The notes under the pieces are model-generated. The model saw only the letters and a program-made list of their open reading frames with translations, was not told the origin of the DNA and did not search any database. Of a DNA stretch of 64,000 bases, positions 9,682-36,103 are shown one piece after another (positions within the stretch are counted from its first letter, which is position 1; each line of letters opens with the position of its first letter). Origin of the DNA: Thermosynechococcus sp. HN-54 (GTDB taxonomy: Bacteria > Cyanobacteriota > Cyanobacteriia > Thermosynechococcales > Thermosynechococcaceae); NCBI RefSeq assembly GCF_023650955.1, contig NZ_CP098039.1:1-64000 (forward strand), given 5' to 3'. The position numbers and the translations under genes are program-made.

Positions 9682-9948
9682 ATGTCTATAAACCCCCACG
9701 TTATTGCAGTTCAGTGGCAATTACGCTGGCCAATTTACCAACGGTTGACTGAGCTAGAGGTGCCCTGTGAGTACCTTCCCTATCAACCCCTGACCGTGGA
9801 GGTCAATTCCCCCCTAGCAGCGCTGCAAGTATGGTCAGTCGTGCGGCAGATGTCTGCTGCCCGTGATACCCTAGTAGATTGGCTGGAACAGTGCTGGCAG
9901 TGCCCCTTGACCGATTTAACCGAATACCAAGATTCTGCTGAGCATTAG
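9682..9948 (+). CDS. Small conserved protein of unknown function
   Basis: An 88-residue soluble protein (MSINPHVIAVQWQLRWPIY...). It has a tryptophan-rich N-terminal strand-helix and a helical C-terminal half (AARDTLVDWLEQCW). I do not recognise the family beyond its being cyanobacterial in style. Divergent from dpsA, with 105 bp between starts. Its TAG overlaps the stop of the large surface-protein gene by four bases. Confidence 0.65.
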   Translation: MSINPHVIAVQWQLRWPIYQRLTELEVPCEYLPYQPLTVEVNSPLAALQVWSVVRQMSAARDTLVDWLEQCWQCPLTDLTEYQDSAEH

Positions 9949-12900
9949 GGGAATGTACAGCCAGCAGGAGGTGCAGCATTGAATGTGGCAGTCGTGATAT
10001 TGGTGACTGTTCCTGCGCCACTGGTGCTGATAGCCACGCCACCATTGTTCAAACTGAGGCTAGGAGCATTAACAACACGGAAGGTAACAGGAACATTCTG
10101 GGGTTGTAAGCGGAAACCCGCACCACTTGTTTGGATATTACTCAATACGTTTGCACACAGTGTTGCACTATTATCAGCCCGCAGCTCTAAACTTCGGGTG
10201 GCAGGGTTCCCTTGAGTGAGGGTGTTGTTACTGAGGGTGGCATTGAGGCGAGAAGTATTTTGAGCACGCAGTCGCACTGCTTCACCGCCAGCCGTTGTTT
10301 GGATACTGTTATTGCTCACTTCAAGTTGCAAGCCAGCATTGTTAGTGGTGTCAATTTCTATCCCGCGATCGCTGACACCAGACAGCTGATTGCCGACAAT
10401 TCTGACCCGTGCCGGTGCTGGACTAGCAGCCGTCGTCGTGAACTCAATGTCAATGCCATCATTACCACCACCAATATTTTGCATCACATTATTTTCAATG
10501 TTCAGCACCACCTGTCCCGCACTATTCGACTCTAGGGTGATGGCATCATCATTTAAGATATTGCGTATCTCATTGTTGCGAATCGTGATATTCGCACTGG
10601 GATTTGCAATTGGAGCTGCACTGCTGACGATATCAAACGTAATCCCCGCATCAGAAATACTGTCAACCACGTTGTTTTCCAAGACAGCTGTGAGGCTAGC
10701 GCCATCCCCAATGTTGAAGTCAATGCCATCACTGCCATCAGCCCCCGTACCAATGTTGCGAATCTGATTGTTCCGAACGGTAACCGTTGCACTCGCGGGA
10801 GCCGCACAGTTCGCAAACTGATTATCACTGAAGCGGTCAGGCACCGCAAAGCTATCTCCACGGCAGAGGTTGAATTCAATTCCATCCACACGATTCCCTG
10901 CCGTCAGGTTGTTTTCAGTCACGTTATTTTCGATGGTGATATTGGCATTCCCGCGGTTGTTGCGGATGAAGATACTGGATTCTAGATTGGTATCTGTTGC
11001 CGTTTGCCCAACATTACGCACAGTATTACCGCGAATAATGACGTTTCCAAGGGCGTTGTCTAGACCAATTCCCTCACCAATGCCACCATTGACAGTGTTA
11101 TTTTCAATCGTTGCGTTGGTACTTTCAGTGAGGCTGATGCCACGGCGGTTAAAGGCAGGGGCAGCCGTACTGGTAATTGTAACGGTGTTATTGCGGATGA
11201 CTGGCGATTGGACATTCTGTAAGACAATACCTGCGGCATTTGTTACGGTGATCGTATTATTGTTGACTTGAGGAGTTAACACAGAGTTATTTTGACCACG
11301 TAAGCGAATTGCTTCACCTGTATTCGTTAACGTATTGTCGCTGATTTCAATCTCTAGACGAGCATTGTTACTTGTATCGACTTCAATCCCGCGATCGCTG
11401 ACACCAGACAGCTGATTGCCGACAATTCTGACCCGTGCCGGTGCTGGACTAGCAGCCGTCGTCGTGAACTCAATGTCAATGCCATCATTACCACCACCAA
11501 TATTTTGCATCACATTATTTTCAATGTTCAGCACCACCTGTCCCGCACTATTCGACTCTAGGGTGATGGCATCATCATTTAAGATATTGCGTATCTCATT
11601 GTTGCGAATCGTGATATTCGCACTGGGATTTGCAATTGGAGCTGCACTGCTGACGATATCAAACGTAATCCCCGCATCAGAAATACTGTCAACCACGTTG
11701 TTTTCCAAGACAGCTGTGAGGCTAGCGCCATCCCCAATGTTGAAGTCAATGCCATCACTGCCATCAGCCCCCGTACCAATGTTGCGAATCTGATTGTTCC
11801 GAACGGTAACCGTTGCACTCGCGGGAGCCGCACAGTTCGCAAACTGATTATCACTGAAGCGGTCAGGCACCGCAAAGCTATCTCCACGGCAGAGGTTGAA
11901 TTCAATTCCATCCACACGATTCCCTGCCGTCAGGTTGTTTTCAGTCACGTTATTTTCGATGGTGATATTGGCATTCCCGCGGTTGTTGCGGATGAAGATA
12001 CTGGATTCTAGATTGGTATCTGTTGCCGTTTGCCCAACATTACGCACAGTATTACCGCGAATAATGACGTTTCCAAGGGCGTTGTCTAGACCAATTCCCT
12101 CACCAATGCCACCATTGACAGTGTTATTTTCAATCGTTGCGTTGGTACTTTCAGTGAGGCTGATGCCACGGCGGTTAAAGGCAGGGGCAGCCGTACTGGT
12201 AATTGTAACGGTGTTATTGCGGATGACTGGCGATTCAGCATTGACTAAAATGATGCCACTGCCATTGGTACTCGTAATTTGGTTATTTGTAATTTGTACA
12301 CCAGTACTATTCGTTATACTGATACCGCTTGCATTAATAGTCGTAATTTGGTTGTTGAGAATCCGGGGTGGGTTGACGTTATTACCAATAATTGCAGGCT
12401 GGCCAAGGGGCGGTGTAATATTAAAGCCATCAATTGTATTATTTCTAGCTAAAACAATAGTGGCAGCAATGGTAGGCTGTTGGTTGCTCGGTGTAAGCGC
12501 AGGGATAGTAATCGTTCCGAGTGTACTTGGAAGTTGTCGGTTCACAGTGGCTGCAAGCAGTTGAACTCCATCTTGGAGATTAATGGTGCCTTGACCTCCC
12601 GTGTTACCATCCGTGTCAGCAACACCAACCAAGACAATGTCATTTTGAGCAAGGGATAAATCATTAATACGGGCAGCACTACCAGCTCCAGTATCAACTG
12701 TAAAAACTCGATAGGGTTGACCCGTGGCAGGATTAATTGCCGCAATTTGATCCTGAACCAGTTCGTTATCAACGGTAATAAAGCTGAGACGCTCTGGGGA
12801 TTCGCCTAAACGGGCTGCGATATTTTGGCCAATTTCAGGAGCACGGCGACGACTGCCGGTCACGCCCGGAAAAGAAACCCCAATGCCAAACCAAGCCTTT

Positions 12901-13646
12901 GTACCAAAACGATCATCATTTTGCACAGTCGCACTTAAGCTCAGATATTCGATGGGGCGCATGGCTAAGCGTGCACGGACGCCAATAAAATCAGCAATAC
13001 TCTCCCCACTGTAGTAGTACAAGCCTGCATAACCCCGCAAATAGTCTTTACCGACTGGAACCAAACGGGTGCCTACTTCCACGTCAAAACCAGTCAGTGC
13101 TTCTTGGAAAAGACGATTGCGATCAAGGAGAATCTGGTTATTTTGAATGGTGCCAATAGAGCCAATTGCTTGGTTGAGGAGCACTTGCCGAGTACCTAGG
13201 GGAATATAACCGTTGATACGAACATCAACATCGCCTAAGAGTTCTAGACCAAGTCCCAGCTGGTTAAAACCAGCGTCTCCCGTATTGCGAAAGTCATAGG
13301 ATACATAGCCACCAAGGGAAAATTTTTGATTAGCTATCAGTCCACGGTAGCCCAGCATCAGATTGTAACCCAAGGCCGTATCAGGTGTGGCCATGAGAAG
13401 TTTGCCTTCAAAGAAACCAACACTAGCACCCGTCTGCTGAAAGAAAGGAATAAATGTCTCTGCACTGAGGTAGTGGTCAAAGCCAGCGCCTTCACTGTTG
13501 AAGCGAATGGTTCCACGGGGCTGAATTCGAGGTCCTAAAATTTCCTCTGCTGAAGATTGACCAATGGCTGCATTGCTGAACCCTAAAATCACACCCAAGC
13601 CAAGTAAGCAGCTCCCTAAAAGCTTGCCCCAAGAACCCATATTCAC
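9945..13646 (-). CDS. Large surface protein: N-terminal outer-membrane barrel plus beta-helix passenger (inverse-autotransporter-like)
   Basis: 1233 residues. A signal peptide (about 1-29, LLGSCLLGLGVILGFSNAAIGQ) is followed by a predicted outer-membrane barrel to about 285, built of alternating strands such as FSLGGYVSYDF, LGLGLELLGDVDVRINGYIPLG and YLRGYAGLYYYSG. The order and wording resemble the intimin/invasin inverse-autotransporter barrel. After a linker, residues about 400-1233 are Asn/Ile-rich parallel beta-helix repeats (IRNNTVTIT, ITIENNV and many NN turns). Residues about 471-753 and 813-1095 appear identical. Expected role: surface display, adhesion or glycan contact; all inferred. 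No LysM or Ig-like domain and no sortase signal is seen. Confidence 0.85.
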   Translation of the reverse strand: MNMGSWGKLLGSCLLGLGVILGFSNAAIGQSSAEEILGPRIQPRGTIRFNSEGAGFDHYLSAETFIPFFQQTGASVGFFEGKLLMATPDTALGYNLMLGYRGLIANQKFSLGGYVSYDFRNTGDAGFNQLGLGLELLGDVDVRINGYIPLGTRQVLLNQAIGSIGTIQNNQILLDRNRLFQEALTGFDVEVGTRLVPVGKDYLRGYAGLYYYSGESIADFIGVRARLAMRPIEYLSLSATVQNDDRFGTKAWFGIGVSFPGVTGSRRRAPEIGQNIAARLGESPERLSFITVDNELVQDQIAAINPATGQPYRVFTVDTGAGSAARINDLSLAQNDIVLVGVADTDGNTGGQGTINLQDGVQLLAATVNRQLPSTLGTITIPALTPSNQQPTIAATIVLARNNTIDGFNITPPLGQPAIIGNNVNPPRILNNQITTINASGISITNSTGVQITNNQITSTNGSGIILVNAESPVIRNNTVTITSTAAPAFNRRGISLTESTNATIENNTVNGGIGEGIGLDNALGNVIIRGNTVRNVGQTATDTNLESSIFIRNNRGNANITIENNVTENNLTAGNRVDGIEFNLCRGDSFAVPDRFSDNQFANCAAPASATVTVRNNQIRNIGTGADGSDGIDFNIGDGASLTAVLENNVVDSISDAGITFDIVSSAAPIANPSANITIRNNEIRNILNDDAITLESNSAGQVVLNIENNVMQNIGGGNDGIDIEFTTTAASPAPARVRIVGNQLSGVSDRGIEVDTSNNARLEIEISDNTLTNTGEAIRLRGQNNSVLTPQVNNNTITVTNAAGIVLQNVQSPVIRNNTVTITSTAAPAFNRRGISLTESTNATIENNTVNGGIGEGIGLDNALGNVIIRGNTVRNVGQTATDTNLESSIFIRNNRGNANITIENNVTENNLTAGNRVDGIEFNLCRGDSFAVPDRFSDNQFANCAAPASATVTVRNNQIRNIGTGADGSDGIDFNIGDGASLTAVLENNVVDSISDAGITFDIVSSAAPIANPSANITIRNNEIRNILNDDAITLESNSAGQVVLNIENNVMQNIGGGNDGIDIEFTTTAASPAPARVRIVGNQLSGVSDRGIEIDTTNNAGLQLEVSNNSIQTTAGGEAVRLRAQNTSRLNATLSNNTLTQGNPATRSLELRADNSATLCANVLSNIQTSGAGFRLQPQNVPVTFRVVNAPSLSLNNGGVAISTSGAGTVTNITTATFNAAPPAGCTFP
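10361..11209 (-). repeat. Copy A of an 849-bp direct repeat inside the surface-protein gene
   Basis: Begins TCCCGCGATCGCTGACACCA and ends CTGGCGATT on the plus strand. It matches copy B 1026 bp downstream without a difference that I could find. It is exactly 283 codons long and in frame. It encodes the downstream copy in the protein (about residues 813-1095). Confidence 0.9.
11387..12235 (-). repeat. Copy B of the 849-bp direct repeat
   Basis: Same sequence as copy A, offset by 1026 bp. The 177 bp between the copies (11210-11386) and the outer flanks are related but diverged. For example, GACTTCAATCCCGCG before one copy corresponds to AATTTCTATCCCGCG before the other. It encodes about residues 471-753. 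Confidence 0.9.
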
Positions 13647-17724: not shown

Positions 17725-18774
17725 CTAGGGGGTTGGATTATTGGCATGGGCTTCTTGGAAGATCACCTGACGCCGCAGCACCTCTTCAATTGTCACATTG
17801 GGTTCAGGCACTCCCTTGAAGGCAGTCCCCACCTCTAGACGAATAAACTGAATGCCTGCCAAGCGATAGCCTTCGGGCGTAAGGGGGACATAGCCGACCT
17901 TGGGAACCACTGTCGGTGCCTGCTGGATGTAATACTCCACAAATTGCCGCAGCAGGGGCTTGTCTTGGGCATATTTGGCATTGACATAGAGGAAGAGAGG
18001 GCGCGAGAGGGGCTGATAGGTACTGTTTTGCACCGTTTCCACTGAAGGCAGAATGGCGCCTCGGTCATCACTGACCGGCACAGCCCGCACACGATTCTGA
18101 TTGGCCATGTAGTAAGCATAGGGAAGATAGCCAAGGGCATTCACATCCCCAGCAATACCCGCTACGATTTCGTTATCGTCTTCACTAGCTTTGTAGTCAG
18201 TGCGAGAGCCGCGCTGATTGCCAAGAATGGCCTCGTTGAAATAATCAAAGGTACCTGAATCTTGACCCGGTCCCCAGAGCACAATGGGTGCATTCGGAAA
18301 GTCGGGGCGTAATTGGTTCCAGCGAGTGAGTTTTTTCTCCGCCGCTTTTTCCCAAAGTTTTTTCAGCTCAGCGACAGAAATTTCCTTCAGCCAAGTATTT
18401 TGGGGATGGACGGCGATCGTCAGCGCATCAAAGGCAATGGGCAACTCAATAAAGGGGACACCATTGGCAATGCACTCATTCATTTCGGTAATGAGGATTG
18501 GGCGGGAGGCGTCACTAATATCCGTTTTGCCGCTACAAAAGGCTCGAAAACCAGCAGATGTCCCTGAAAAGGCAACAGCAATATCGGCCTCTTGACCATT
18601 GGGCGTGGTCTTAAACCCTTCCGCGATCGCCTTGGAAATCGGATAAACCGTGCTCGAGCCATCCACCCGAATCACCCTCAGCATTGGATCATTGGAGGCG
18701 GCCTCTGTTGCACAGCCCACAAGGGTGATGGCCACAAGGGGTAAAACTCCGCGCCTCAATTCCTGAAACTTCAT
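17725..18774 (-). CDS. sphX: SphX-like phosphate-binding lipoprotein
   Basis: Substrate-binding protein of the PstS superfamily, 349 residues. The signal peptide has lipobox LVGC (Cys about 21). Phosphate-site style loops are DGSSTVYPIS, FSGTSAGFRAFCSGKTDISDASRP and GPGQDSGTFDYF, the last placing Ser/Thr/Arg/Asp near the anion as in PstS. In cyanobacteria SphX is a low-phosphate-induced protein working with Pst. Here it lies beside pstSCAB on the opposite strand. The spacer between them now contains an insertion element. Confidence 0.88.
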   Translation of the reverse strand: MKFQELRRGVLPLVAITLVGCATEAASNDPMLRVIRVDGSSTVYPISKAIAEGFKTTPNGQEADIAVAFSGTSAGFRAFCSGKTDISDASRPILITEMNECIANGVPFIELPIAFDALTIAVHPQNTWLKEISVAELKKLWEKAAEKKLTRWNQLRPDFPNAPIVLWGPGQDSGTFDYFNEAILGNQRGSRTDYKASEDDNEIVAGIAGDVNALGYLPYAYYMANQNRVRAVPVSDDRGAILPSVETVQNSTYQPLSRPLFLYVNAKYAQDKPLLRQFVEYYIQQAPTVVPKVGYVPLTPEGYRLAGIQFIRLEVGTAFKGVPEPNVTIEEVLRRQVIFQEAHANNPTP

Positions 18775-18804
18775 AACTCAAGCCTCACTCTAAAAATGAC
18801 AGGT

Positions 18805-18810
18805 ATTGTA
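18805..18810 (-). promoter_or_regulatory. Possible -10 element of sphX
   Basis: TACAAT on the minus strand, about 30 bp before the sphX ATG. A -35 element and a convincing Pho box are not apparent on this strand, only a repeated CTAATT. Weak call. Confidence 0.3.
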
Positions 18811-19246
18811 TCAATTAGAAAATTAGTAGATTCAACTATTTTTCCACTAAAAAAATCACTAAAAACAATGAAAAAACGCTCTATTCATGCTTCAAAAATG
18901 CTTCAAAGATGAGTTGATGATATAAATCCCTCTAAATTAAATTTAGTAGCTTCAATTCAAAAAGTTGAGAATTAATCAAATATTATCTTAAAGAACTTTG
19001 TTAGCTCTTCTCCCCAAGGAAAGTATTGCTGAGAATACATCAGAAAACTAACCCTAGAGCTAATTTTAGGCTGCTTTTGGTCTGGGTGGCCTAGAGATTA
19101 AGAAAATTTTTATAAATTGCTTCCTTGAAAGTATTCCTCACTACACTTGACAACAAATTAAGCTTAGACTATCCTACCCAAGCTTTGGTTCGGAGCGATA
19201 GGCGCTGCAAAACAATAAAAAAACTTAATTAACAGATAGAGTCGTT
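18811..19246. other. AT-rich spacer between sphX and the Pho-box promoter
   Basis: About 430 bp with no credible reading frame and a base composition far richer in A+T than the surrounding genes. It contains short repeats (CTTCAAAAATG/CTTCAAAGATG) and a palindromic TAAATTAAATTTA. It may hold upstream regulatory sequence for sphX. Nothing specific is assigned. Confidence 0.5.
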
Positions 19247-19279
19247 CTTAACCTAACCTTTACATCGTTCCGGTATTAT
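19247..19279 (+). promoter_or_regulatory. Pho-box-like direct repeat and -10, ancestral pstS promoter
   Basis: CTTAACCT (19247-19254), AAC, then CTTTACAT (19258-19265), followed after 8 bp by TATTAT (19274-19279). Two 8-mers with 3-bp spacing placed just before a -10 is the arrangement of cyanobacterial SphR (PhoB) boxes, whose consensus half-site resembles CTTAACCT. It points toward pstS, but the IS element begins 90 bp downstream, so pstS is now 1.3 kb away. Confidence 0.6.
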
Positions 19280-19359
19280 CTCCCTAGCTTGTTTTTGAGT
19301 TGCGATAGATTTGTCGTTGCTATCGAGCAAGCTGTCATGCAGCCCTTGTTCTAAAAACT

Positions 19360-19368
19360 ATGGAGTAC
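19360..19368. repeat. Target-site duplication, left copy
   Basis: ATGGAGTAC immediately left of the element; the identical 9-mer lies immediately right of it. Confidence 0.9.
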
Positions 19369-20457
19369 CAGAAGTGTTGAATTCTGCAACAAAACTTAAC
19401 ATCCTAAGTGACAAGTAGCTCTGGCTGCCAATCAAAGCTCCAATGCACTATCGAGCAGCGGCGACTCAGTTCCAGTTGCAAATATCGCAATTTGTCTAAT
19501 AGCTTCCTGCCAAAGTATTCAGGTATCTCCATTAGCTCTAAAATTAAGTACCCAATCAAAACCATATAAATCTGATTTATCACCCCATTCAAACTCTTCG
19601 TAATCAGCTTGTCTAATGATAAATGCATCTTTAGAAACTTCCATAAGTTCTCAATCCCCCACCGATGCCGATACAGCTCACTCACTTCCTCATCACTTAG
19701 ATGCATTAGATTCGTCGCAATACGAAACTCTGTTCCATGCTCATCAAAAAATTGAACCACTCGGTATCTCTCATGATTGAGCTTCATTCTCATGTTATTC
19801 TTGATACGCACAACAAATAAACACTTCCTCTCACTCAGCCGCTCTAAAAATCTCCAACTCGCAAACCCTCTATCCATGATGGCAACGGCATTCTCAGGGA
19901 TCATTTCTAAAATCTCGTCTTGAAAGCTTAGGTCATGTCTCTCCCCAAAAGAGACTACTGCCTTACCCAGGATGTTCTCTGTTAAATCAAATCCTGTAAT
20001 TAACTTCACTTGATGGTATTTGTAGAACCAAAAGAGCTTACTCGTCAGGGTAATGACGGTTGAATCAATAGGAAACAGCATCAGACTTGAACAACGATGT
20101 CTCTTGCGAGCTTGAGACATGAGATGAGTGTAAATCCTCTCAAATAAGGTGGTTGTTCGAGTTTTGTTCGCCTTGGAAAACGTGGACATATCCACTGTAA
20201 TCCCCGAATGATTCAAGCGATAAAATAAGGCTCTCATGCTGGTTAATCCTTGGTCGAGAATGTAGGTCAACCAGATTTTGAAGAACAATTGAGAGTTGAG
20301 GACGGGGTAGTCGCAAGGGCTGAGCTGCTTGAGAATAGACTTGACAAGAACTGAAAAAGATGCCATAGTAAGCTGATTAATTTTTCTTCTTTTGAGGGAA
20401 GAATACGACATTTCTTCCCTTTTTTCTAGCCTCTTAAACTATCTTTCAACACTTCTG
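19369..20457 (-). mobile_element. Complete IS4-type insertion sequence
   Basis: 1089 bp bounded by 13-bp perfect terminal inverted repeats (CAGAAGTGTTGAA at the left, TTCAACACTTCTG at the right) and flanked by 9-bp duplications of ATGGAGTAC. It encodes a single intact DDE transposase on the minus strand. Exact duplications and an open transposase frame point to recent insertion. It is richer in A+T than the neighbouring pst genes. It lies between a Pho-box-like promoter and pstS, with its transposase reading against pst transcription. Confidence 0.93.
19404..20411 (-). CDS. IS4-family DDE transposase
   Basis: 335 residues. The catalytic acidic residues are in FPIDSTVITL (first Asp), AIMDRGFASW (second Asp) and YRHRWGIENLWKFLK. 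The last carries the Glu together with the Y-R-E-K spacing that defines the IS4 family. The frame is uninterrupted with a normal N-terminal helical region, so the enzyme is probably functional. The ATG is 46 bp inside the right end of the element. Confidence 0.93.
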   Translation of the reverse strand: MSYSSLKRRKINQLTMASFSVLVKSILKQLSPCDYPVLNSQLFFKIWLTYILDQGLTSMRALFYRLNHSGITVDMSTFSKANKTRTTTLFERIYTHLMSQARKRHRCSSLMLFPIDSTVITLTSKLFWFYKYHQVKLITGFDLTENILGKAVVSFGERHDLSFQDEILEMIPENAVAIMDRGFASWRFLERLSERKCLFVVRIKNNMRMKLNHERYRVVQFFDEHGTEFRIATNLMHLSDEEVSELYRHRWGIENLWKFLKMHLSLDKLITKSLNGVINQIYMVLIGYLILELMEIPEYFGRKLLDKLRYLQLELSRRCSIVHWSFDWQPELLVT

Positions 20458-20466
20458 ATGGAGTAC
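20458..20466. repeat. Target-site duplication, right copy
   Basis: ATGGAGTAC directly after the right terminal repeat, identical to the left copy. Confidence 0.9.
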
Positions 20467-20608
20467 ATGAACGGGGATGAAATCCTCGTGCCTGCTGTCA
20501 GTGCACAGTAGTTCTAACTGTTTTGAGTAGTCTCAATCCTCACGAGAGGGGCTGTAGGTACTGATGCGTCAATGCATTTGTTCATTGTTCTTACTGGCGA
20601 TCGCGCTT

Positions 20609-21679
20609 ATGATCTTCAAACTCAGAAAATCTCGAATTCTTATGATCCTCTCCGCTATTATTACCGCTGGCATCGTTGTTGCTTGCGGTCCTCAAGGAAA
20701 TGGCGGTGCACCAACTGGCGAGGTCATTAGCATTAATGGTGCAGGAGCAACATTTCCAGCACCTCTCTACCAAAACTGGTTCAAAACCTACGCCCAAAAC
20801 GTTGATCCCAAGGTTCAAATCAGTTATCAATCCGTTGGTAGTGGGGCTGGCCTAGAGCAGTATATCAATGGCACGGTGGATTTTGGTGCTTCCGATGCGC
20901 CGATGAAAGGCGATCGCCTGAAATCCTTTCAGGAGAAATACAAGGCGAATCCTATTCAGGTTCCCATGACTGGTGGTGCCGTTGTCTTTGCCTACAACCT
21001 ACCCGGTGTGGATGAACTGAAGCTACCCCGTGAAGTCTACTGTGGCATTGTTACGGGCAAAATTACCCGCTGGAATGATGCGAAACTCGTGGCTGCCAAC
21101 CCCGGGAAAACTCTGCCAGACAAGGCGATCACCTTTGCTCACCGCTCTGACGGCAGTGGTACCACATTTATCTTTACGAACCACATCAATACTGTCTGTC
21201 CTGGCTGGCCGGCGGGTGTCGGAACCTCTGTGAATTGGCCTGTCGGTGTTGGTGGTCAAGGAAATGAAGGGGTGGCTGCTCAGATTCAGCAAAATGAAGG
21301 CACCATCGGCTACGTGGAGTATGCTTACGCCAAGCTCAACAACCTCTCGCGGGCACTTGTAGAAAATAAGGCCGGCAAATTTATTTACCCTTCTCCAGAG
21401 GCAGCCTCCAAAGCCTTTGAAGGAGCCACGATTCCTGAGGACTTTGGTTTGTTGGTGCCTGACCCCAAAAATCCGGAAGCCTTCCCAATTGCCGGTTTGA
21501 CTTGGATTATGGTGTACCCTGAGTATGCTGATGCTAAAAAATGGCAAGCGCTGAAAGGTGCCTTGACTTGGGCACTAACCGATGGCAAGTCCATTACTGA
21601 AAAACTGGACTATGTGCCGATGCCTCCCGACATCGTCGAGCGGGTTAAAGCAACCTTGGAGAAAGTGAAAACTGCCTAA
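20609..21679 (+). CDS. pstS: Phosphate ABC transporter substrate-binding protein PstS
   Basis: Captures periplasmic phosphate for PstCAB. ATG 20609 gives 356 residues starting with a classic lipoprotein signal (MIFKLRKSRILM, hydrophobic core, VVACG). An upstream in-frame ATG at 20564 would add a second hydrophobic stretch and seems less likely, although GAGGGG precedes it. Phosphate-contact loops: GAGATFPAPLYQNW, SVGSGAGLEQYINGTVDFGASDAPM, and HRSDGSGTTFIF. First gene of pstSCAB. About 140 bp upstream lies the right end of an insertion element that separates it from the Pho-box-like promoter. Confidence 0.95.
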   Translation: MIFKLRKSRILMILSAIITAGIVVACGPQGNGGAPTGEVISINGAGATFPAPLYQNWFKTYAQNVDPKVQISYQSVGSGAGLEQYINGTVDFGASDAPMKGDRLKSFQEKYKANPIQVPMTGGAVVFAYNLPGVDELKLPREVYCGIVTGKITRWNDAKLVAANPGKTLPDKAITFAHRSDGSGTTFIFTNHINTVCPGWPAGVGTSVNWPVGVGGQGNEGVAAQIQQNEGTIGYVEYAYAKLNNLSRALVENKAGKFIYPSPEAASKAFEGATIPEDFGLLVPDPKNPEAFPIAGLTWIMVYPEYADAKKWQALKGALTWALTDGKSITEKLDYVPMPPDIVERVKATLEKVKTA

Positions 21680-25936: not shown

Positions 25937-26139
25937 AAATGCACATTCCCTAGTGACAATGCAACACTGGCGATCGCGGGCATGGCCGCAAACAGGCCAA
26001 TCTTCAGTTTAGCAATGTGGCTGATCATTTATCGCCCAAGATCCAGCACTTCGGCACGGGGCTGTCTCTTAATCAATCAGCGATATATTAGGAATCAAGA
26101 AGCCCTGACGACGGTGCTCATGCCCCTGCGGAGTATTTG

Positions 26140-26523
26140 ATGGAACCGCTCGACCCCGTGGATCGGGACGCTTTTACCAACCCGACATTGCAGCGATTGT
26201 GGTTCTTTGTCTATTTGCTGCCCATTTTTGGCATGATTCCGGCGCTGTGGCAGTTGAGCCGCCGGGGGAGCGATCGCCAGACCCGACAAGTGAGTCGCCT
26301 TGCTGTTCTCATTGGTCTCATTTGGCTGTTGGGCTATGGTCTGCTGAATGGGGCTGCCAGTGTGAGTGAAGCCCAGTCCCTGCATCATGGCCTGTTGCTG
26401 TTCCTCAATAGTCTCTGGGGATCCGCTTACTTTCTGGTGAACTTGGGGCTAATGGTGCGCCTATGGCGGGGCCGATCGCTGAAATTGCCCTTCTTACAGC
26501 GTCTGATGAAATACCTGCCATGA
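26140..26523 (+). CDS. Small membrane protein coupled to a GTPase gene
   Basis: 127 residues from ATG 26140, with a TTG directly before it as alternative. Three or four hydrophobic helices (about 20-42, 56-76, 82-110) and a basic cytoplasmic tail. No known domain. Its stop overlaps the start of the GTPase gene (ATGA at 26520-26523), so the two proteins are very probably made together and may act in one membrane complex. Confidence 0.72.
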   Translation: MEPLDPVDRDAFTNPTLQRLWFFVYLLPIFGMIPALWQLSRRGSDRQTRQVSRLAVLIGLIWLLGYGLLNGAASVSEAQSLHHGLLLFLNSLWGSAYFLVNLGLMVRLWRGRSLKLPFLQRLMKYLP

Positions 26524-28156: not shown

Positions 28157-29632
28157 ATGAGTCTCTTGACCCGCAGTCCTGATCTTGAGGTGGAACAACT
28201 GCCGCAGTTATTGCAGGCGGCTCGGTCTCGTTATTTGGCTGGGGAGCGATCGGCCGCTGTGATGAAGCCCCTCTCTCAAGCCCTGCGAGCCATCCTCGAG
28301 CGCAACATTGATGCCCAGCTTAGTCAACGCGGCGGCTATCTCCAACGCCTAGTGGAAGCCTATTTTCGTCTCTTTCCCCGCTGCCTAGAAAACCTGAGCC
28401 GCGATCAACTTCAACAGCAGGCGGTGCAAAAAACGGTACAGCGGCTACTGCAAATTCCTGCCACCGTCATTCAAGATGAGTACGATCGCCTGAATCGTGC
28501 TCAGTACAACCAGCCCCTCAAGCAACTGGTGCTTGCCTTTAGTCGTCCAGCGCTAGCCAACCGCAATCCCACCCCCGCACTGACCGAGGCCGAGTGTTTC
28601 CTTGCCTTTTTTATTCAGTGCCTGCGCCAAGAACTGGGAGCAACCGTTCTCCTTGCACCCCAATTTCGCAACGAGTACCGCGATTTGCTCCGTAGCGTGT
28701 GTTTGGCTAGTCCTGATCCGGAACAGTGCCAAAATAACCTCACGGGCTGGCTCTGGGAAGCGATGAAATCCTTTGATCCCCTCAAACCCTTTGGAGCCAC
28801 CGGCCATGGTCGTCCCACCTTTGAAGCATGGGTGCGCACAGTTATCAGCAACAAACTCGCAGATGAAAAACGCAAACTCCTCAAACGGGAGGCGGATGAA
28901 CTGCTCTTTTATGACAACCGCGCTCTCCAAGTTTTTCAGGATCGCTATCGAGCGGCTCCGCCTGAGATAAAGCGGGAAATTGATCCCCAAGCTTGCTGTC
29001 AGTTGATTACGATTGTGCAAACGGAGATTACCGATCCCCGCATCCGCGCTTCAACGGCTCGTTTGCGCCAGCAAATTGCCCAACTCTTGGGCTGGACGAT
29101 TGAATACACGCGGGAGACTCATCAACAGGTACGACGAATTCTCGGACGCTATGTCCAGTCCACCCGCTCTCTGAACATTTGCTCCACCGACAGCAACCAA
29201 GAGTGGATTGACAACTACCCCGATGCTCGCACCCTGCCAAGTGCCAATGGCCAAGGAGTGGAGTGCATGGTGGAGTTTCTCAATGATCCGCAGACGCCCA
29301 CGTGGGTCAGGGATTGGTGTGAGCGTCGCCGTACCCAAGCAGAAATTGCTCGCGAACTCTTTGTCAGCCAGCCCACGATTTCTCGCTGCCTTGGTCGTGA
29401 ATATCGCCTTTGGCTTTACCGTAAATTCTTTCAGGATCCCCAGATTCCGCAATGGATGAGGCGATGGTATGAAACCCAATCAATTCCGAGTCCCCACCAA
29501 CGACGGCAAGCCCGCCGTGAAATTCACCCTGACTATGCCCGTGGCACCTGCACAGCAAAACAAATCGATGAGCAAATAGAAGCCAAACTTGCCCAGTGGT
29601 GTGAGCTGAACGGCATTTACTACCTGCCCTAG
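28157..29632 (+). CDS. Sigma-70-like protein, cyanobacterial type
   Basis: 491 residues, soluble. Two parts look like sigma regions. Around residue 198, WLWEAMKSFDP...FEAWVRTVISNKLADEKRK resembles region 2 (core binding and -10 recognition). Near 393-415, RRTQAEIARELFVSQPTISRCLGRE is a helix-turn-helix like region 4. The rest, including a long N-terminal helical part and a C-terminal Arg-rich tail, is not recognisable. It may be an alternative sigma factor or a sigma-derived regulator. It is followed 41 bp later by a DUF1822 gene, a pairing I recall as recurrent in cyanobacteria. Confidence 0.6.
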   Translation: MSLLTRSPDLEVEQLPQLLQAARSRYLAGERSAAVMKPLSQALRAILERNIDAQLSQRGGYLQRLVEAYFRLFPRCLENLSRDQLQQQAVQKTVQRLLQIPATVIQDEYDRLNRAQYNQPLKQLVLAFSRPALANRNPTPALTEAECFLAFFIQCLRQELGATVLLAPQFRNEYRDLLRSVCLASPDPEQCQNNLTGWLWEAMKSFDPLKPFGATGHGRPTFEAWVRTVISNKLADEKRKLLKREADELLFYDNRALQVFQDRYRAAPPEIKREIDPQACCQLITIVQTEITDPRIRASTARLRQQIAQLLGWTIEYTRETHQQVRRILGRYVQSTRSLNICSTDSNQEWIDNYPDARTLPSANGQGVECMVEFLNDPQTPTWVRDWCERRRTQAEIARELFVSQPTISRCLGREYRLWLYRKFFQDPQIPQWMRRWYETQSIPSPHQRRQARREIHPDYARGTCTAKQIDEQIEAKLAQWCELNGIYYLP

Positions 29633-31661: not shown

Positions 31662-31997
<336 letters not shown>

Positions 31998-32156: not shown

Positions 32157-35100
32157 CTACTCCCCCACTCGATGCCGTGGTGGCACAACCATCTCCCCTG
32201 TCCGATACCGATTTACCATTGCAGCTAGCGCCTTCTCCATCTCGCGGCTAAACCGTTGCGGGTTCCACAGGGGCGCATGGCGCTTAGCCTGCCGCAGTTT
32301 CCAGCTCACCCGCTGTCGCAGTTCTGGCTCTGTTCCAAAACGAATCCCCCAATTCACATACTCCTCATCATTGAAGGCAATCCCCTCCTCAACCCCGACA
32401 TTTTTCAGGAAGGTGTAGGTGTGACGCGCTACAAACTGCTGACCCACCTTCGTAACAATCGGCACCTCTAACCACAGGGCTTCGAGACTCATTGCCCCAC
32501 CTGCATAGGGATAGGTGTCGAGTACCACATCTACATCGTAGAGATTGGCGCGGTGGATCTCGCTTGGATTTGGGGTCAGAAAATAAAGTTTGTTAAGGTC
32601 AAAGCCATAAGCTTCCGCAACACTGCGGCACCACTCTTCAAAAACCGAGCTGCTAGCATGGTACTTGATAATGAGTACGGCATTAGGAACTGCTTCAACA
32701 ATGGCAAATTGCAGCTTAAGCATTTCTGGTTGAATTTTGCTAGCTCGCTGGGCACAGAGAAAGATTACTGTATCGGCACTCAGCCCCAATTGATCGCGAA
32801 TTCCTGTTTTATTAGCGACCTCATAGCCATCAAGGGAGAGATAACAAGCCGGCAGTCGCCACAGCGTCTCTGTATACCATGCTTGCGCCCCCTCAGGGAG
32901 AATGTAGGGGTCAACAATAAAGTAATCTACTGTTGGTATTCCGCTAGCATCAAAACCTACCCATGTTGCTTGTACAGGCGCTGGCTTCAGATGGAGAGCC
33001 ATCCAAGACATATCAATAGTGCAGCTATCAAGGTCAATCAAGACATCCAAGTCGTCATCATGTATGATAGTAGCAATTTTTTCTGGATCAGGTTCCGTAA
33101 GAGGTCGAAAGTAATCAAAAGAAGCCTTGAACCATTCACGCATGCTATCAGATGATTCTTTTCTGTACTCAATGCTGTAGGCGTATAATGTAAGGGTATC
33201 TCTATTGCGCATGCGGATAAAAGAGCGGATTTGATTTCCAGCGGGATGTGTTTTGAAACAAACACCAATAAAGCCCACTTTTATTTTTTCAAGTTTAGAA
33301 ATGTTGTATAAGGAACTTTTCTTTATGCGTTGATACTTATCAAGCTGGTAAAAGAGAGGAACTTTTTCCTGAGCTAATTGGTTTCTGTGGTTGAAAATTG
33401 GTTTTAGAAAATCTGGCTGATCAATATGATGTGTTAATGCAAAATAAGAAGAAACGGTATAAAACAAAGTAGGAAGAGTAATATTCTCGCTATTTAAATG
33501 TTCATAATAGCTATTAAAATTATCAATGTTATCTAGCCACTGCCTGCACAAATAATCAATTTCTTGCAACAACTTTATATTGTATTTATAAGTCTGCAAA
33601 ACTTCTATTTTACGGGTCAAGGCCAAATCTTTACCAATTGGAGTTAAATTCAAGGAATCTTCTAGAAGTGAGTTAACACACACTAACGCTAGCTCTGGTG
33701 ACTTTGACCTAATGAGAGCTGAAGCCAGAAAATGATAGGCAGCAAAGTCAACCACTGAGATTTTCATATAGGTTTTCGCTATACTTTTTGCGATTTTCTC
33801 TGGATTATTTAAGATCAGCTCAAATAGCAAATGGCTCATTTCTTTTTGTAAGTTTAGCTGCTCTGCCCAGTTTTCGATCAATTTATTAGTTTCTTCATCA
33901 ATTTCATAATCAACTAATAGTTTTCTTAATATTTCTAAAACAAATATTTTATCATCTTCTGTTATTTCACTATTTTCAAAGCGAACACTGTTCAAACTAC
34001 TAATCAGAGACTTAATATCATCAGGCGGTAAAGATAGTTTAATAAATAAATCCAAAAGAGTAGCGGATGTTTCAAGAGTAGCTTGGAACTCATAAGCATA
34101 GCTCGCAAAAGCAAATCTATTTTCCAATGAAAACTTTTCATAATTTGCTAAATTAATTAAGATTTTAGACCAATTATGACTAGCATTAAGATACTGCTCC
34201 TCAGGATATTCAGTCATACAGAGAGACCATAACAATTGTGCTTCTGTTTCTTTTCCTTGTAGAATGTACGCAGCACCTTGATATGCAAACCAAACAGAAT
34301 CTTCGGGAAATTTCTCAATCAACTGAATACAAGTATCAATAACTAGTTGATAGTGCCCACTTTTAAGGTGAAATTCAAGACGGCTTTTCCAACTCTCAGC
34401 AGTTAATATAACAGGTTGACTATTTATTAAGGACTCTAAGCAATTGATCCACTCATCTGCACGACGTTGCCAAGTATAGTGATCATGGATATATTCGACC
34501 TGACTTCGTAAATGACTTTCTAACTTGATATGATTCTCTGGGCAGTAGAATCGCTCTACAATTCGTGCTAGAGCCTGACCATACCTTGCTTGGTAAGTTG
34601 GCCAGTCAGTTGTGAATTCCACCAATTCTGCAAAGCCTGCTGTTGTTTCTGGAAGTGCACCTAGTGTAGATGTAACAATAAAGCAACCACTAGCCATTGC
34701 TTCAAGGGCAGAAATACAGGAAGTTTCAGGAAAAGTATTGGGATAACTTAAAATAGCAATCTTCTTTAAGGCTTCCGCTAATGTTCTTTGGGAACACGAG
34801 CCATGGTAGTTGACTCCTGGAAGATTTTTGAATTTTTCATAGAGTGCCTGCCACCTGTCTTCGGCAGGGCTGACTTGATAAACATTCATACTAGAGTAAA
34901 CTTGTAACTCTAGATTTGGGTACCTCTGGTACAGCCTTGGATAAATCTCTAATAACTGCTCTAGTCCACGAAAAGGGGTACTTGTGTAAGCAAGCCTTAT
35001 GTTAGGTAGCTTTTGTTCTAAGATGGATTCTTCTGGAGAAAATAGATGTTCAAAATACGGGCTAACTGCATTACGTAAGACAACGAGCAGGTCAGGCTCA

Positions 35101-35540
35101 AGCTTAAACTTAGTTAGGTATTGCTGCCGCTGCCATTCGCTGACAACAACAATACGATCTATTAAAGATACAACTACAGGATCACTTAAGTCTTGCACTC
35201 CTGGTTGATCAACGTGATGCTGCGTCCACAAAACCAAGCTAGTACTTGTGGGTAGTACTGTTCGTAAATCTTGAATAGAAGAAGTGCTGTTGAGCACAAT
35301 ACAAACATCAGGTTGAATAAAAGTCAAAGTTGCCTTAGAAAGAGCAGATAGTGGTAGATGGAGAATTCCATCAACAACAGCTATCTTTTGACAGTTATTA
35401 GCTAGAAAGACCTCCTGCCCTTTCTCATGGAGGGTAGATAGCAAGTAGCAGAGTGCCGATTGTGATCCTCCCAAAGGATCTTTTTTTGGTGTCTCAACTG
35501 TATAAGAGAGTGATGAAGGATCAACGAACAGTAAGCGCAT
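32157..35540 (-). CDS. Double glycosyltransferase: GT4-like, TPR-like middle, GT41 (OGT/SPINDLY)-like
   Basis: 1127 residues. Residues 1 to about 370 resemble a GT4 retaining glycosyltransferase (GLEQLLEIYPRLYQRYP, then PETSCISALEAMASG with the acidic donor-site motif). Residues about 375-740 are helical and TPR-like. From about 745 the protein resembles bacterial O-GlcNAc transferases (GT41): GFIGVCFKTHPAGNQIRSF with the HP motif, PAPVQATWVGFDASGIPTVDYFIVD, RASKIQPEM with the candidate donor Lys, and LDTYPYAGGAMSLEAL. DNA coding for the middle is strikingly AT-rich, while the 3' end is not. Next gene upstream is a pilin, so surface or pilin glycosylation is a fair inference. Confidence 0.82.
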   Translation of the reverse strand: MRLLFVDPSSLSYTVETPKKDPLGGSQSALCYLLSTLHEKGQEVFLANNCQKIAVVDGILHLPLSALSKATLTFIQPDVCIVLNSTSSIQDLRTVLPTSTSLVLWTQHHVDQPGVQDLSDPVVVSLIDRIVVVSEWQRQQYLTKFKLEPDLLVVLRNAVSPYFEHLFSPEESILEQKLPNIRLAYTSTPFRGLEQLLEIYPRLYQRYPNLELQVYSSMNVYQVSPAEDRWQALYEKFKNLPGVNYHGSCSQRTLAEALKKIAILSYPNTFPETSCISALEAMASGCFIVTSTLGALPETTAGFAELVEFTTDWPTYQARYGQALARIVERFYCPENHIKLESHLRSQVEYIHDHYTWQRRADEWINCLESLINSQPVILTAESWKSRLEFHLKSGHYQLVIDTCIQLIEKFPEDSVWFAYQGAAYILQGKETEAQLLWSLCMTEYPEEQYLNASHNWSKILINLANYEKFSLENRFAFASYAYEFQATLETSATLLDLFIKLSLPPDDIKSLISSLNSVRFENSEITEDDKIFVLEILRKLLVDYEIDEETNKLIENWAEQLNLQKEMSHLLFELILNNPEKIAKSIAKTYMKISVVDFAAYHFLASALIRSKSPELALVCVNSLLEDSLNLTPIGKDLALTRKIEVLQTYKYNIKLLQEIDYLCRQWLDNIDNFNSYYEHLNSENITLPTLFYTVSSYFALTHHIDQPDFLKPIFNHRNQLAQEKVPLFYQLDKYQRIKKSSLYNISKLEKIKVGFIGVCFKTHPAGNQIRSFIRMRNRDTLTLYAYSIEYRKESSDSMREWFKASFDYFRPLTEPDPEKIATIIHDDDLDVLIDLDSCTIDMSWMALHLKPAPVQATWVGFDASGIPTVDYFIVDPYILPEGAQAWYTETLWRLPACYLSLDGYEVANKTGIRDQLGLSADTVIFLCAQRASKIQPEMLKLQFAIVEAVPNAVLIIKYHASSSVFEEWCRSVAEAYGFDLNKLYFLTPNPSEIHRANLYDVDVVLDTYPYAGGAMSLEALWLEVPIVTKVGQQFVARHTYTFLKNVGVEEGIAFNDEEYVNWGIRFGTEPELRQRVSWKLRQAKRHAPLWNPQRFSREMEKALAAMVNRYRTGEMVVPPRHRVGE

Positions 35541-35574
35541 AGATATTACTAAGTAGTGGTAAACATATGATAAA

Positions 35575-35603
35575 CAAAAAAGCTAGGAAAAATATTCCTA
35601 GCT
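35575..35603 (-). terminator. Rho-independent terminator of the pilin gene
   Basis: On the minus strand, AGCTAGGAA, loop TATTT, TTCCTAGCT, followed by TTTTTG. A perfect 9-bp stem with a T-run, 42 bp after the pilin stop. It should separate the pilin message from the glycosyltransferase gene, apart from read-through. Confidence 0.85.
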
Positions 35604-35644
35604 AAGCTTAAGAGTTATTTTATTCTTGACTGGTTTAACTAGCT

Positions 35645-36103
35645 TTAGGTGCAGTTAGTTGGTGCATTATTGTTACTACCTGTTACCACAGTTGCACTTG
35701 TCGTGCCGGTAGTAGCAGTAACGCAGCCTTGAACACCTGTACCAGCAGTGTCAGTGGCAGTGAGAGAAATTTGTGCTGTTGTCGGGTTGCCACCAGCCAT
35801 GGATACACTATATCCATCAACAGCAGTAATGGAGGTACCTACACCCAATTCAGTTACGTTGTTAGCAAAGGCGGTCTTCTCCAGACGATAGGCCTGCTGA
35901 GCACGGTTGACGGCACCAGCCGCGTTTTTGGCAGCAGATAGGCGGGCTTTGGCGGCTTGGTTGAGCATGGAGGGCAGGGCAATGGCGGCCAAAATACCGA
36001 TGATGATGACCACCACCAGTAGTTCAATTAGGGTGAAGCCTTCGTTGGCTTTTTTCTTGGCCAGCAGGTGCTGGAGGAATTTCGCTTTCAGTTCGGTTTT
36101 CAT
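35645..36103 (-). CDS. pilA: Type IV major-pilin-like protein
   Basis: Prepilin of 152 residues. A basic 22-residue leader ends at Gly22, cleaved before Phe23 by PilD. The mature N-terminus FTLIELLVVVIIIGILAAIALP has Glu at +5 for pilus assembly, in a hydrophobic stalk. The globular part is rich in Ser/Thr and has two cysteines near the C-terminus (VQGCVT and PTNCT) that can close the D-region loop. Pili drive twitching phototaxis and DNA uptake in Thermosynechococcus. The many Ser/Thr sites and the neighbouring glycosyltransferase make O-glycosylation plausible. Confidence 0.92.
   Translation of the reverse strand: MKTELKAKFLQHLLAKKKANEGFTLIELLVVVIIIGILAAIALPSMLNQAAKARLSAAKNAAGAVNRAQQAYRLEKTAFANNVTELGVGTSITAVDGYSVSMAGGNPTTAQISLTATDTAGTGVQGCVTATTGTTSATVVTGSNNNAPTNCT

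Follow-up and report, generated by a model that had tools for sequence, protein, structure and literature searches.

The locus described here lies in a 64,000-nucleotide stretch of the genome of Thermosynechococcus sp. HN-54 (assembly GCF_023650955.1, contig NZ_CP098039.1, positions 1 to 64,000), referred to as the window. It consists of pilA1, the gene of a major type IV pilin, followed by the gene of a 1127-residue enzyme in which two glycosyltransferase (GT) domains of families GT4 and GT41 are fused in one chain. The genome of the window is designated G000, and the other G numbers denote genomes of relatives. The features of the locus, given in window coordinates, are as follows.

35645..36103, reverse strand: pilA1, the major pilin gene, coding for a 152-residue prepilin and located upstream of the glycosyltransferase gene
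35648..35938, reverse strand: PilA1 head, residues 56-152, the variable part of the pilin
35581..35603, reverse strand: terminator-like hairpin followed by a T run, within the 104-base gap between pilA1 and the glycosyltransferase gene
32157..35540, reverse strand: fused glycosyltransferase gene, 1127 residues (GT4, helical middle and GT41)
34425..35540, reverse strand: GT4 domain, residues 1-372
33306..34388, reverse strand: middle module, residues 385-745, the most variable part of the enzyme
32160..33305, reverse strand: GT41 domain, residues 746-1127
32160..32960, reverse strand: constant part of the enzyme, about residues 861-1127, with near-normal G+C content and not tracking the PilA1 head
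31662..31958, reverse strand: conserved flank gene of 98 residues, 100% identical in G002, G003, G004, G006, G007 and G010; we take its product to be a 2Fe-2S ferredoxin-like protein

The presence of GT4-like and OGT-like (GT41) domains in one chain, proposed in the initial annotation, is borne out by profile searches, in which three Pfam families exceed their curated cut-offs, and by the predicted structures, in which both domains have the GT-B fold. Glyco_transf_41 (PF13844) matches the protein in two stretches, the best at residues 914-1101 (E 1.2e-36, 126.5 bits, cut-off 25), and both Glyco_trans_1_4 (E 2.2e-8, 34.9 bits, cut-off 27) and Glycos_transf_1 (E 4.4e-8, 33.3 bits, cut-off 26.4) match residues 191-299. 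Residues 1-372 are modelled by AlphaFold2 as a confident GT-B fold with a predicted local distance difference test (pLDDT) score of 89-97 by blocks of ten residues. The first-ranked PDB match of this model is MshA (3c4q, TMt 0.72), and other GT4 enzymes are also similar. The GT41 part is of low confidence in the full-length model and was therefore folded separately, giving a GT-B fold with a mean pLDDT of 87.7 which matches OGT, SPINDLY and XcOGT at TMq values of 0.83-0.86 (human OGT 4xif, 0.86; XcOGT 2vsn_A, 0.86 with a root-mean-square deviation of 2.0). When solved structures are compared by sequence, residues ~752-1117 match OGT/SPINDLY-type enzymes best; 5djs, titled Thermobaculum OGT, comes first (E 5.6e-40) and, together with SPINDLY and human OGT, is nearest to the C-terminal part.

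The putative catalytic residues are invariant in 10 of 10 aligned rows, representing the window and nine relatives. In the GT4 domain these are R191 and E272-x7-E280, an E-x7-E motif being typical of GT4. In the GT41 domain they are H765, located within the start of the domain, and K935 and D1008 in its remaining part, which we take to correspond to the catalytic H498, K842 and D925 of human OGT from the alignment and the human numbering. The middle of the chain, approximately residues 381-741, appears in the full-length AlphaFold2 model as helices with pLDDT of 25-72. This stretch had been called tetratricopeptide repeat (TPR)-like. Its helical character is retained in the low-confidence model, but no TPR was found among the Pfam matches at E<=1, and a TPR-like nature is possible from the model. 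The highest 19-residue hydropathy is 1.66 for the enzyme and 3.16 for the pilin. Since the enzyme has no hydropathy peak of a membrane segment, it should be cytoplasmic. The fused frame is free of stops and of full length in 8 of the 11 genus genomes, the window's own among them, and the fusion is thus not an artefact.

The upstream gene was correctly described in the initial annotation as coding for a Ser/Thr-rich type IV pilin: the protein carries the N-methylation motif and a Pfam Pilin_GH match, and 26 of the 97 residues of its head are Ser or Thr. By sequence, it is the ortholog of T. vulcanus PilA1. The serine of the fragment QTSADDPQG, prepilin residue 114 in G010, has the same position and context as S114C in the T. 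vulcanus protein, which is described as labelled at S114 with an oligonucleotide that translates as QTCANDPQG (PMC9090330). PilA1 and the fused enzyme are adjacent in seven of the nine genus genomes where both were found. The fusion adjoins a pilin in G124 and G156 too, so that this neighbourhood occurs in three genera of the family. The fused gene was not found in G005 and G009, both draft genomes. Loss of the locus was considered for these two and dropped: in G005 the flank homology stops about 45 bases before the 3' end of the glycosyltransferase gene and the contig ends 55 bases further, and in the G009 draft even the flanking gene has no match. A second pilin in L059, L061 and L062 (G010, G007 and G003) has the cleavage site GLTLIELL instead of GFTLIELL, so that in these three species the mature protein begins with L in place of F.

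A hairpin followed by a T run is located between the pilin and glycosyltransferase genes in eight of nine loci (G000, G002, G003, G004, G006, G007, G010 and G124). These intergenic hairpins fall into at least three sequence types. They were judged by eye on the folds, and only G000 was also scanned; G156 has a different gene order and its gap is not comparable. The scan of the window region for terminator-like elements gave 8 sites against 4.2 expected (standard deviation 2.1). Because of this background a single hairpin is weak evidence, and it is the repeated position that carries the argument.

The low G+C content of the locus, which was absent from the initial annotation, and its mosaic structure among relatives are of greater interest than the features noted there. 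In the genus genomes sharing the site, the five flanking proteins have 86-100% identity to those of the window, and the identity of the glycosyltransferase to that of the window is 84% in G002 and 52-56% in the remaining genomes. Between G000 and G004 the identity is 51% in GT4, 34% in the middle, 39% in residues 746-850 and 94% in residues 851-1127. The last section is 88-95% identical among G000, G002, G003, G004, G007 and G010. Between G000 and the outgroup G124 the corresponding values are 44%, 21%, 30% and 51%, so that GT4 and the last part appear about equally constrained at long range. The third-position G+C content in G000 is 0.33 in GT4, 0.28 in the middle, 0.36 in residues 746-850 and 0.51 in residues 851-1127, and 0.56 in flank gene B.

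The phylogenies of the segments were compared with a species proxy tree built from one core gene and four flank genes, in which the group of G000, G002, G004 and G005 is supported at 79/97 only. The GT4 tree joins G004 to G003, G007 and G010 (100/99). The species proxy rejects this group (approximately unbiased (AU) test, p 0.009), and the GT4 data reject the group of G000, G002 and G004 (AU p 0.0002). It follows from this conflict that G004 combines a GT4 of one type with a pilin head and middle of a second type. The identity of G004 to G003, G007 and G010 is 83-86% in GT4, 43-44% in the middle and 57-61% in the pilin head. The G000 and G002 sequences are placed outside the other six of the genus in the GT4 tree (85/90; AU p 0.055 against the alternative). 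This tree contained only two outgroup rows, and for this reason no donor can be named for the low-G+C version. The trees of residues 746-850 and 851-1127 were not decisive for any group tested (AU p > 0.09 throughout). The fourfold identity of residues 851-1127 between G000 and G004 is 53%, below the 70% of flank gene B, and the "constant" part is therefore not simply clonal. The enzymes of G003 and G007 are 97-98% identical in GT4 and the middle and diverge at about residues 1013-1127, which may be a further sign of exchange of the 3' part.

The covariation of the enzyme with the PilA1 head was assessed by a Mantel test on pairwise identities in the nine genomes with both genes. Of the two PilA1-like copies in G001, the copy interrupted by an internal stop was excluded. 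For G003 the pilin sequence covers the matched stretch only, its last residues missing. The G006 glycosyltransferase lies on two contig ends, and the piece from residue 185 was used, unjoined; owing to this split the GT4 correlations are limited to residues 190-372 and the sliding scan to eight genomes. The PilA1 head correlates with GT4 at r 0.60 (p 0.01), with the middle at r 0.87 (p 0.0001), with residues 746-850 at r 0.89 (p 0.0001), and with residues 851-1127 at r -0.02. The corresponding values for a control pilin paralog are 0.28, 0.27, 0.11 and 0.89. In a sliding window of 80 residues, r for the PilA1 head is 0.52-0.71 in GT4, 0.80-0.93 in windows 361 to 880, 0.64 at 841-920, and 0.00 to -0.23 from 881 on. 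For the control pilin it is 0.13 at 801-880, then 0.40, and 0.86 at 881-960. The profile thus reverses between windows 801-880 and 881-960. The correlation of the head with the middle is 0.82 (p 0.006) with one genome per type (n=6) and stays at 0.69-0.86 when G004, G000 and G002, all three, or near-duplicates are removed. The partial correlation of head and middle given GT4 is 0.61-0.87 in five sets, and that of head and GT4 given the middle is -0.30.

Taken with the gene neighbourhood, the sequence data suggest that the locus is probably a cyanobacterial pilin-accessory cassette, composed of PilA1 and a dedicated cytoplasmic O-glycosyltransferase, an Ogt with an added GT4. The middle and the start of GT41 are read as a putative pilin-recognition module because these follow the pilin, whereas the rest of GT41 follows the species. 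The start of GT41 meant here comprises the initial strands and helices of its first lobe. OGT-type enzymes hold their protein substrate partly by the region that precedes the catalytic domain, and how they choose their substrates is still debated. A more specific proposal is that the enzyme is a bifunctional pilin glycosyltransferase whose recognition module is swapped between Thermosynechococcus species together with the pilin head, these swaps not being tied to the GT4 and donor-binding modules. This we offer tentatively, at somewhat less than an even chance.

If the pilin head and the enzyme had instead moved as one recombined block of DNA, the covariation would be hitch-hiking without any matching of enzyme and acceptor. 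The low G+C content and the identity breaks fit such a block, as does the adjacency of the two genes in most genomes, and without G004 the correlation of GT4 nearly equals that of the middle (0.81 and 0.86). However, GT4 sits between the pilin and the middle on the DNA, so that linkage alone would predict the opposite order of their correlations, and the GT4 of G004 resembles those of G003, G007 and G010 far more than its middle and pilin head do. The covariation also persists with G001 and G008 included, in which the two genes are unlinked. Transfer as a single block is therefore considered unlikely as the whole explanation.

Several points weigh against recognition-module exchange in a dedicated pilin-glycosylating enzyme. 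The nine genomes are related, and the segment borders were picked after the alignment had been seen, the sliding scan being border-free. The correlation of GT4 with the head rises to the value given above once G004 is removed, and a correlation of the head with the rest of GT41 (0.56, p 0.04) emerges when G000, G002 and G004 are all removed. The fourfold-site break test is mixed: three of seven pairs exceed all 300 permutations (G002-G004 at residue 867, G000-G010 at 869 and G003-G007 at 1013), and G000-G004, G000-G002, G004-G010 and G004-G003 do not. Transfer of the whole block could account for part of the pattern. The two genes are unlinked in G001 and G008. The glycan, the donors and the activity of the enzyme are predictions, and, having no membrane segment, the predicted enzyme must reach the pilin before translocation.

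The dissociation of segments was also absent in a second genus, that of G186, in 19 pairs. There, 22 of 23 genomes gave a match and 20 regions were fetched (not G141 and G205); G134 was dropped since no pair was found by the script. The PilA head correlates with the middle at r 0.76, with residues 746-870 at 0.74 and with residues 871-1110 at 0.82, and the control pilin, present in 9 of the 19 genomes, gives 0.72, 0.77 and 0.75. In this genus the match of accessory enzyme and pilin is not separable from relatedness, and the dissociation is so far seen in Thermosynechococcus only. The Ogt beside pilA in these regions (L197-L216) is encoded by a single gene or two adjacent genes, the first of ~720-790 residues, or is fused; the fused form, ~1480-1530 residues with two GT41 domains, is found in 10 of the 20 regions.

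Alternatively, the enzyme could act mainly on a polysaccharide or a different surface protein, with pilA1 as a neighbour by chance. PilA1 as the substrate is a prediction, and the separation of the genes in G001 and G008 would agree with this explanation. We nevertheless regard it as very improbable. The pilA gene lies upstream of Ogt, within about 510 bases, in 19 of the 20 regions of the second genus, a pilin is beside the fusion in three genera, and the enzyme covaries with the PilA1 head and not with the control pilin over the middle and the start of GT41. In addition, glycosylation of PilA by Ogt is published: the ogt gene beside pilA in cyanobacteria is described as acting in PilA glycosylation and pilus assembly (PMC12288463), and S. 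elongatus Ogt as glycosylating PilA (PMC9260433).

The neighbourhood of pilA and ogt and its general role are therefore not new. The initial annotation considered the arrangement unusual; this does not hold for ogt next to pilA, which is common, but stands to a degree for the GT4 fusion at a pilin locus, which is less common. The present enzyme resembles Nostoc punctiforme OgtA and Synechococcus elongatus Ogt in that GT41 is found next to pilA (PMC12288463). It differs from the stand-alone Ogts matched here, which lack an N-terminal GT4; OgtA and the S. elongatus protein are compared by description. The exchange pattern of Thermosynechococcus does not appear in the available portion of PMC12288463 for these Ogts. 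Literature searches covering titles and the openings of abstracts gave no report of a cyanobacterial GT4/GT41 pilin fusion or of a pilin-enzyme exchange. Judged from the sequences compared, the new features would be the GT4 fusion on an Ogt at a pilin locus and the matched mosaic in Thermosynechococcus.

The profile of the fused family was searched in 29 genomes of the taxonomic family, and 19 gave a match. Full-length matches are found in eight Thermosynechococcus genomes, G124 and G156. The middle and GT41 alone are matched in G076 (twice), G137 (twice), G197, G087, G196, G163 and a second gene in G124. The stand-alone Ogts beside pilA, of ~730-790 residues, align to residues ~380-1124 of the fused family, and it appears that an Ogt composed of the middle and GT41 gained, or kept, an N-terminal GT4. 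Among the matches listed, GT41 occurs in 16 of the 33 loci of this GT4 clade and in none of the 47 loci with distant GT4s. Six of these 16 listed loci have GT41 in the same frame and ten have a GT41 gene in the flank retrieved. The GT41 profile used for scoring was seeded partly from loci later scored. One of the 16, L109 (G156), is the fused family itself and several are congeners, not independent, and L133 (G006), at a contig end, is counted among the 17 loci without GT41. The recurring pairing of GT4 with GT41 argues that both activities act on one product, and GT4 probably extends the first sugar. From the intact motifs of both domains and this recurrence, we infer that one enzyme may both start and extend the glycan.

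The same GT4 clade is also found as stand-alone proteins of 475-494 residues, and no motif-recognised pilin was found near them in the four loci fetched, two being short contigs. It is joined elsewhere to GT17 (Azospirillum and Niveispirillum) or GT61 (Oscillatoriales) and thus appears to be a modular glycosyltransferase part. In L126, L129, L113 and L123 it heads multi-domain proteins, mostly with TPRs. In Microcoleus, Tychonema and other Oscillatoriales (~1480 residues) and in G180 (1160 residues) the same clade is joined to GT41 of a different subgroup (27-35% identity), with long canonical TPR arrays in the two that were scanned, and these loci show no motif-recognised pilin. The G180 fusion (L087:5027-8509) has canonical TPRs and a GT41 of 27% identity, and no motif-recognised pilin lies in the 15 kb retrieved for this locus.

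The stand-alone proteins and the other partners leave room for an enzyme that modifies PilA1 by GT41 but whose GT4 acts elsewhere, on a polysaccharide or another acceptor, or is a mere scaffold. Of the variable parts, GT4 also follows the pilin least closely. This explanation is not a very likely one, since a GT4 motif identical in all ten rows and the recurrent joining of GT4 to GT41 speak against it.

The arrangement of the locus was compared, by description, with the pilin-accessory gene cassettes of P. aeruginosa, in which pilA is accompanied by tfpO, tfpW or tfpX/Y/Z. The pilin gene, the terminator hairpin and the accessory gene are shared by both. A terminator downstream of pilA is described as common in the P. 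aeruginosa cassettes and is proposed to attenuate the accessory gene, and TfpO and TfpW are described as glycosylating pilins and helping escape from pilus phages (PMC11841053). The accessory gene there is described as typical of the pilin group (PMC11841053); in Thermosynechococcus the relation is expressed by r of 0.87-0.89. TfpO and TfpW are said to be unrelated to each other (PMC11841053), so that the exchange in P. aeruginosa involves entire genes, in contrast to Thermosynechococcus, where one homologous enzyme varies over part of its length. No family named for TfpO, TfpW or TfpX/Y/Z was found among the Pfam and NCBIfam matches at E<=1, the presence of such models being unchecked. By analogy, the locus probably works like a pilin-accessory gene cassette. 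Another comparison is Caulobacter FlmG, an OGT-like enzyme which likewise has an N-terminal repeat or helical module and a C-terminal GT-B domain (PMC7591256). Its TPR part is described as binding flagellins in two-hybrid tests, and its GT part as not binding them. FlmG differs in its flagellin substrate, pseudaminic acid, recognised TPRs and length of 596 residues, and a GT4 does not appear in the available description (PMC7591256).

The following sequence of steps is proposed for pilin glycosylation. With its middle and the first ~110 residues of GT41, the parts for which covariation is observed, the enzyme would bind PilA1 ahead of its insertion into the membrane or while this takes place. 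With a nucleotide-sugar as donor, the GT41 domain would then attach the first sugar to Ser/Thr residues in the head of the pilin, as suggested by its family and by the published work on Ogt. One or more further sugars would be added by GT4, in line with the fusion and the recurring pairing with GT41. The hairpin after pilA1 might keep enzyme levels low compared with those of the pilin. From one species to another, the head of the pilin and the recognition part would have been exchanged or re-matched, and the later, donor-side part of GT41 would have stayed with the species, a pattern that the sequences show. As to the driver of the exchange, phage pressure is our guess.

If this proposal is true, the natural domain swaps would reveal which part of an OGT-type enzyme reads the substrate protein, and the locus would be a surface-type switching system in cyanobacteria and a counterpart to the Pseudomonas cassettes. 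Phage sensitivity and phototaxis could be affected, as could the formation of mats and cell-cell recognition. The locus provides enzyme-pilin pairs in culturable, transformable thermophiles, in which borders separate the parts that track the substrate from the remainder. Genetic transformation is described as achieved in T. vulcanus and strain NK55a, and the T. vulcanus work describes a pilA1 knockout and pilus filaments watched by means of labelled PilA1 (PMC9090330).

Elsewhere in the window, the Rfam scan found one tRNA and otherwise no family. A DDE transposase gene (19407-20411) is flanked by two PBP-like (substrate-binding protein) genes at 17725-21679, in a stretch of low G+C content (0.43 at 18-20 kb), and a right-handed beta-helix protein of 1233 residues (9945-13646) lies in a stretch of lower G+C content (0.48). 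The 491-residue protein at 28157-29632 has no Pfam match at E<=0.001 and is 91-94% identical across the six genus genomes compared. A small open reading frame at 26095-26388, outside the five flank proteins, has 72% identity in G006.

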